This document shows, piece by piece, positions 19,459 through 20,334 of a DNA stretch of 31,310 nt. The translations under genes were made by a program, and so were the position numbers. Each line of letters opens with the position of its first letter. Within the stretch, counting starts at the first letter, position 1. Origin of the DNA: a virus; IMG/VR virus record IMGVR_UViG_3300032284_001936, positions 1-31,310 of that record, one strand, 5' to 3'. The notes under the pieces are model-generated. The model was not told the origin of the DNA, did not search any database, and worked only from the letters and a program-made list of their open reading frames with translations.

Positions 19459-20334
19459 TTATTTGATGCCAAGAAAAGTCCGAAGATTTTCTACGCCATC
19501 GACAACGGCATAAGCAGCAACCTGGCCAAGTGAATTACACTTATATGATCCTTTTGCATAGTAGGGAATACGCATATAGCCCTTTTCGCCCCATGCCGTT
19601 CCCCAAGAGTTAAGAAGATACCAGTGACCGTTTTTGTCTGGGGATGCCTGCCAACCTGTCAGGATTACCATGTGGTTAGGCTGAGAGTAGTTACAGCCGT
19701 TAAATATACCGTTTTTGTAACGCATAAAACCGCTGTCTGCGCCGACGACTACAGCAATGGGGCCGTGGTCATAAATGGCCTGCTTAAGCTGCTCAACAGT
19801 GGGTTCAGCGCTGCCGTCGCCAATGTAAGACCAACGGGTAATAGACTGAGCCGGAGCGTAACTGCGGCAAGAGTTTTGAAAGGCTTTATATGGATAGCTC
19901 CCTTCTAGCGGAAGCCCTGAGTTTTGGATGTAGTCAAAAGCGTTAAACCAACCACCACCACACCCACTGCCGCTACAGTCAAGAAGGGCCTGTGGGCCAA
20001 GTAGCGTTGTCTGTTCGCCCTTGTGCTGAAGCTGCCAGACAATTTCTGATACACCATCCGTGGCAAACGCCCAGCATGAGCCACATGCTCCCTGATTCCT
20101 CGCATCACGAACAGTGCCATGCTCCCTCCAGTCCCAGTGCTGAGGAAGATTCGGGCTTGGTATGACGTTATCCCCAGACCGGCTAACTTGCTCGGGCCAA
20201 TCACTTGGCATTTTAAGGCCAGTAAGGTTTTCGGGATTTTTGTGGGCATCTAGGTAGCGAATTACCCAATTATCTCCGTAAGCTACAGACGCGAACAAAA
20301 TAAACGACAAAAAGATGAGATCTGAAAGCCTCAT
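19459..20334 (-). CDS. Secreted papain-family (C1A) cysteine protease
   Basis: The start is the ATG at 20334 with a GAGG site 6 bases upstream; an ATG at 20346 has no ribosome site. Residues 1-20 form a Sec signal peptide (hydrophobic LIFLSFILFASVAYG, probable cleavage after Gly20). The mature enzyme shows every C1A active-site feature. Oxyanion Gln81 and nucleophile Cys87 lie in RNQGACGSCWAF, the S2-site CGGGW is at 125-129, His221 is in NHMVIL, and Asn242 is in NSWGTAWGEKGYMRI. Cysteines at 84, 120, 125, 156, 214 and 266 could form disulfides, fitting an exported enzyme. Only about 40 residues separate the signal peptide from the catalytic domain, so the usual long ERFNIN-type inhibitory propeptide is missing. 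It has its own promoter and is transcribed alone or after the gene at 20469. Such a gene is very rare in a phage; role unknown (envelope or surface protein attack, or host benefit). Confidence 0.9.
   Translation of the reverse strand: MRLSDLIFLSFILFASVAYGDNWVIRYLDAHKNPENLTGLKMPSDWPEQVSRSGDNVIPSPNLPQHWDWREHGTVRDARNQGACGSCWAFATDGVSEIVWQLQHKGEQTTLLGPQALLDCSGSGCGGGWFNAFDYIQNSGLPLEGSYPYKAFQNSCRSYAPAQSITRWSYIGDGSAEPTVEQLKQAIYDHGPIAVVVGADSGFMRYKNGIFNGCNYSQPNHMVILTGWQASPDKNGHWYLLNSWGTAWGEKGYMRIPYYAKGSYKCNSLGQVAAYAVVDGVENLRTFLGIK

Follow-up and report, generated by a model that had tools for sequence, protein, structure and literature searches.

A predicted exported papain-family protease with a short pro-segment encoded in a tailed-phage contig

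Why would a phage carry a papain-family (C1A) protease with an export signal, and how could such an enzyme fold and be kept in check by a pro-segment of only about 40 residues? The gene that raises these questions lies on a 31.3-kb IMG/VR virus contig (IMGVR_UViG_3300032284_001936; all 31,310 nt were analysed and are called the window here). The same contig carries genes for TerL, portal, capsid, DnaB and RecT, which bear out the phage location given in the original prediction, as well as an O-like replication gene, an M15 endolysin gene and two tRNA genes. Beside the tRNA genes, at 18000-18042, a 20-nt sequence is directly repeated without mismatch at 23-nt spacing. The C1A gene is on the minus strand, a point on which the original prediction was silent, with a DUF6948 gene on one side and two family-less genes followed by the O-like gene on the other. 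The features are collected in Table 1.

Table 1. Features of the C1A protease gene and its surroundings (window positions; residue numbers refer to the 295-aa form)
Feature	Position	Strand	Remarks
DUF6948 protein gene, flank	18790..19089	+	family also in C1A phages L169 and L190
Four DnaA-box-like sites, 11-bp period, downstream of the C1A gene	19315..19358	-	
C1A (papain-family) protease gene	19459..20334	-	PF00112, E 2.1e-50; AF2 pLDDT 93; procathepsin K, E 1.9e-22
Mature C1A domain	19462..20148	-	catalytic codons in separate rows
N246 codon	19609-19611	-	
H225 codon	19672-19674	-	
C91 codon	20074-20076	-	
Q85 codon	20092-20094	-	
Short pro-segment, ~42 aa, residues 25-66	20149..20274	-	procathepsins K and S align here, ahead of the mature start
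TGL motif, putatively cleft-blocking	20215..20223	-	Gly invariant in relatives
Predicted signal peptide MRLSDLIFLSFILFASVAYG	20275..20334	-	cleavage site by eye; hydropathy maximum
Shine-Dalgarno-like GAGG	20341..20344	-	6 nt before ATG 20334, from sequence
Two DnaA-box-like sites, presumed 5' leader	20352..20373	-	
Extended -10-like TGGTATAAT	20390..20398	-	by eye, consensus only; no scored sigma-70 promoter
Upstream neighbour, no family	20469..20831	-	
Replication initiation O-like gene, flank	21752..22660	+	

The open reading frame spans 19459-20346 and encodes 295 residues from an upstream ATG at 20346 or 291 residues from the ATG at 20334. The latter is the better supported start because GAGG lies just ahead of it and nothing similar precedes ATG 20346. 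The residue numbers first given for the catalytic site (Gln81, Cys87, His221 and Asn242) are exact from that start and become Q85, C91, H225 and N246 when counted from the upstream ATG, the numbering used below. A promoter of its own had also been ascribed to the gene; an extended -10-like element is visible by eye, but a consensus scan of 18300-21800 scored no sigma-70 promoter, which leaves the claim weak. DnaA-box-like sites number 18 in the whole window against 6.7 expected, and the arrays flanking the protease gene may mark an origin or a DnaA-responsive leader. A Gly-rich 82-codon reading frame (19077-19325, plus strand), a candidate gene, adjoins the downstream array. An inverted repeat at 20418-20435/21774-21791 was rated chance-level and set aside.

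Two more minus-strand genes of the window deserve mention. The first (29141-29872) encodes an exported alpha/beta-hydrolase-like, esterase-like protein with the motif GFSNGAFF, whose similarity to extracellular PHA depolymerases is weak and below cut-off; a search for viral relatives of it gave none. The second (29869-30702) encodes a predicted lipoprotein adjoining the tail-fibre end, in a position reminiscent of receptor-blocking lipoproteins such as T5 Llp. Its family was also found beside tail genes in the phage contig L081 and in L164, L185, L196 and L201.

The protein encoded by the C1A gene matches PF00112 over residues 67-265 with 172 bits against a Pfam cut-off of 20.7, and at an E-value of 2.1e-50 the papain-family match is not a matter of chance. 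All four residues of the catalytic site are present, as originally claimed, and they are invariant across 68 aligned relatives. The AF2 model is that of a confident C1A zymogen (pTM 0.90), a papain fold with the pro-segment docked onto it, and its best solved-structure match in Foldseek is procathepsin K; TMq is ~0.70 for the zymogen versus 0.64-0.65 for most of the mature enzymes listed. A phage endolysin of the CHAP or NlpC/P60 papain-like type was considered and rejected because neither domain matched, the Pfam matches being solely of the Peptidase_C1 type. We thus hold it as almost certain that an intact C1A zymogen gene is present in a phage.

The N-terminal hydrophobic core has the highest 12-residue hydropathy of the protein and is followed by AYG/DN, which by eye looks like a plausible cleavage site for signal peptidase I, in agreement with the Sec-type signal peptide of the original prediction. 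Judged from these features the protease is very probably exported. Its seven cysteines are accounted for by the six papain disulfide positions, whose conservation rests on the aligned relatives, plus the catalytic cysteine; this pattern fits an exported protein.

The pro-segment was the more puzzling part. It had been argued that C1A enzymes normally need an inhibitory propeptide of roughly 100 residues to fold, so that folding or control must differ in an enzyme with about 40. The length itself was read correctly: only ~42 residues lie between signal and mature start, an ERFNIN/GNFD-type propeptide of ~100 residues is absent there and the I29 propeptide domain gave no Pfam match up to E 10. 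The requirement, on the other hand, was too strong, since the propeptide of human cathepsin X has 38 residues (PMC10650516). Pro-segments in general fold onto the enzyme and cover the active site (PMC10650516), and the cathepsin L-type propeptide lies in the cleft in the reverse sense to a substrate, one of its leucines occupying a hydrophobic pocket (PMC7720491).

Several observations bear on what the short segment retains. The phmmer match runs past the mature domain into the pro-segments of procathepsins K and S and aligns NLTGLKMPSDW of the window protein with KMTGLKVP of the procathepsin K tail. The Gly of the TGL motif is invariant in all 34 phage and all 34 cellular relatives and is followed by L, Y or F in 34/34 phage proteins; its distance from the catalytic cysteine is 43-50 residues in the phage proteins (48 in the window protein) and, judging from the alignment, about 47 in procathepsin K. 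In the AF2 model the docked pro-segment includes blocks spanning residues 31-60 at pLDDT 89-95. By alignment the pro-segment corresponds to the final third of the propeptide of cathepsins K and S, the cleft-threading part, with TGL placed, as we infer, over the catalytic cysteine; the blocking tail appears to be kept and the N-terminal helical cap gone. Since this tail seems to be retained and a propeptide of 38 residues is enough for cathepsin X, the folding puzzle is largely resolved and the view that folding or control must differ is not supported. Self-inhibition by the short pro-segment is likely, and we infer that the tail alone is enough for folding and control.

A cathepsin B-type propeptide, hinted at by W...CG in cellular relatives, was also tried and rejected: Propeptide_C1 (PF08127) gave no match up to E 10, PDB support was lacking and cathepsin B is absent among the 50 best Foldseek matches. 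The cathepsin K/S tail is preferred because the phmmer alignment fits it better. In C1A proteins of cellular origin, among them those of Planctomycetota and Zixibacteria (L084-L118 and similar loci), we observed a common pro-segment, GWTFTVGENxATxYxLxxLCGLxxP, which had no Pfam family in the three tested (L085, L089, L101) and, for L085, matched no PDB chain.

How widespread are such genes? Among named phages a single one of 50,697 records has a C1A match, a weak one. Alignment- and motif-based scans of IMG/VR recovered 72 loci by alignment, some of them weak, and 39 contigs by the active-site motif, or about 70 in 2.9 million viral contigs; a close DNA-pattern search for the window gene in viral contigs gave no match. 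The gene is therefore rare in phages, as had been stated, without being unique. BFVD lists annotated phage 'Peptidase C1A' proteins, so the kind as such is already known. Among 25 records that share the packaging module of the window (TerL identity as low as 29%; capsid identity 86-94% for the closest ones), some of which are fragments, none carries C1A, yet about 70 IMG/VR contigs do, and C1A is thus an accessory gene. More distant phages with TerL ~50% identical (L172-L179) have their own lipoprotein-type C1A adjoining TerL. It was probably acquired on more than one occasion.

The best cellular match is a chromosomal C1A of a Bdellovibrionaceae MAG (L080, JAHFAF010000089, 5160-6044), located outside any phage context. 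It is 46% identical over residues 11-285, pro-segment included, and shares the same pro-segment GDTWVSQYLEKGGDIRHVTGLVLPSDW; its genome holds five C1A genes. C1A was found in 90/369 Bdellovibrionota, 46/284 Myxococcota, 48/291 Armatimonadota and 7/398 Pseudomonadota genomes, Bdellovibrionota having been sampled more deeply. The best match binned as Armatimonadota is itself a phage contig (L081, JAKPFN010000099.1) with tail fibres, RecT, endolysin and C1A, to be read with the usual caution about binning. In the trees the window protein falls into a small clade together with four proteins from phages and three from Bdellovibrionota (SH-aLRT 95, and 93 in the larger tree). A single clade uniting phage with Bdellovibrionota proteins was starred in a tree of 83 rows but was lost after Myxococcota, Armatimonadota and Pseudomonadota were added, and only the small window clade was kept. 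These sequence relationships are a hint of a Bdellovibrionota host, not proof of one. Relatives of TerL are essentially absent from the 369 Bdellovibrionota genomes, and searches with TerL and capsid found no prophage there.

The neighbourhoods of C1A in other phages offer clues to its role. At six loci (L169, L181, L184, L187, L188 and L199) an Amidase_2 endolysin gene precedes C1A on the same strand, with 11-48 nt between the two, and in most cases genes for a secreted HEIGH metalloprotease-like protein and an SNase-like protein follow C1A; the shared synteny makes these loci look like about one event. In L211 the distance between C1A and an M15 endolysin gene is 34 nt. Exported thioredoxin-like genes occur downstream of C1A in L159 (7405-7878), the closest phage relative, and in L202 and L211; their products could act on disulfides or on the catalytic thiol. 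Taken together the neighbours speak for a protease that acts outside the cytoplasm and, in one of the lineages, during lysis. The argument from lysis cassettes is drawn from these other lineages because the nearest endolysin of the window (M15) is 5.5 kb away on the opposite strand.

Two exported families near these genes were noted in passing. The secreted HEIGH zinc-metalloprotease-like protein, for which no Pfam family was found, is encoded directly downstream of C1A in L199 (11252-12052), L169, L184, L187, L188 and L193. An exported family of 230-280 aa occurs near C1A at 13 loci in several lineages (L159, 8125-8808; L206, 10912-11745).

We tentatively propose, by analogy, a late role for the exported protease in lysis and dispersal. 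Sec would export the precursor, whose pro-segment, inserted in reverse into the cleft and placing TGL above the catalytic cysteine, would keep the enzyme silent; disulfides would be made in the periplasm. Cleavage of the pro-segment, by the enzyme itself or by another protease, would free the active enzyme, which late in infection may degrade proteins of the envelope, S-layer, matrix or debris and so help the endolysin to dismantle the host and free virions. Among the functions originally proposed, lysis or virion release gains some contextual support from the amidase-linked loci elsewhere. It counts against this role that none of the 25 related phage records carries the gene. The whole chain, an active, exported and self-inhibited C1A protease acting late in host disruption, is a reasonable reading that still falls somewhat short of probable.

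An enzyme exported early could alternatively trim surface proteins, so that other phages cannot adsorb, or released progeny cannot adsorb to debris. Such receptor shaving or superinfection exclusion would suit the position of the gene near replication genes rather than among late structural genes, the lipobox-like N-terminus of 7/34 phage relatives, which could be surface-anchored, and the exported lipoprotein encoded by the window at its tail-fibre end. We consider it unlikely, as a lipobox is missing from the window protein, a general protease would make a blunt tool and the link with amidase genes seen in other phages points to action late in infection. The enzyme could also be cargo copied from the secretome of a predatory or saprophytic host and feed the infected or lysogenic cell. 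Its nearest cellular relatives are indeed chromosomal Bdellovibrionota genes, five of them in one genome, and the window encodes the secreted esterase-like protein with its weak likeness to PHA depolymerase, but we noticed neither an integrase nor a repressor there, which leaves lysogeny unsupported, and the near absence of TerL relatives from the Bdellovibrionota genomes also speaks against it; we regard this benefit to the host as quite doubtful.

In a bolder scenario, phages of Bdellovibrionota, with their predatory or epibiotic hosts, would have turned exported host hydrolases into a mobile arsenal for exit from the predator and possibly from the surrounding prey cell. That arsenal, the short-propeptide C1A with metalloprotease-like, nuclease, thioredoxin-like and esterase proteins, would move between unrelated phages. 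We offer both parts as speculation with little probability. A connection of the arsenal with the lipoprotein at 29869-30702 was dropped, its closest relatives (L306-L308) having no C1A in the stretches examined.

A structural or maturation protease, packaged in the virion or acting on the head, is very improbable: C1A does sit between TerL and portal-side genes in L172-L179, but on the strand opposite to TerL, the proteins throughout have an export signal or lipobox and the disulfide pattern of an exported enzyme, and phages with the same head genes lack C1A. Despite the close relatives on Bdellovibrionota chromosomes, an assembly join of bacterial and phage DNA is scarcely credible because phage-type genes stand on both flanks, GC shows no abrupt shift, the best cellular copy is only about 46% identical and C1A recurs at different loci of other phage contigs beside terminase or endolysin genes.

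Among known systems the window enzyme shares with cathepsin L/K/S-like C1A proteases (PF00112) the Q/C/H/N site, three disulfides, the fold and, by alignment, the putatively cleft-threading propeptide end TGLxxP; it differs from them in the loss of the ERFNIN/GNFD helical propeptide domain (I29), in its predicted bacterial Sec export and in being a tailed-phage gene. With cathepsin X/Z it shares a very short propeptide (38 residues in cathepsin X; PMC10650516), whereas the latter is a carboxypeptidase with insertions of its own and is the closest match neither in sequence nor in fold. The annotated BFVD proteins (uncultured Caudovirales phages, Siphoviridae) and phrog_16701 also have a tailed-phage C1A domain but are distant, at 13-22% identity. 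Baculovirus V-CATH is a papain-family auxiliary protease that is produced as a precursor, acts late and together with chitinase liquefies the host (PMC3783443). The resemblance, a virus-encoded papain-family protease made as a precursor, is one of functional analogy only; V-CATH is cathepsin L-like, has a longer pro-region, is routed through the ER and acts in an insect host.

The pro-segment provides a natural test of the minimum propeptide for a papain enzyme, with the cleft-blocking tail apparently kept and the helical cap gone. Phage lysis is usually told in terms of holins, endolysins and spanins, and to our knowledge little thought is given to the breakdown of proteins beyond the cytoplasm. 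If phages repeatedly carry and exchange a family of exported cathepsin-like proteases, encoded in one lineage immediately after the endolysin, lysis would gain a proteolytic step and baculovirus V-CATH a bacterial counterpart.
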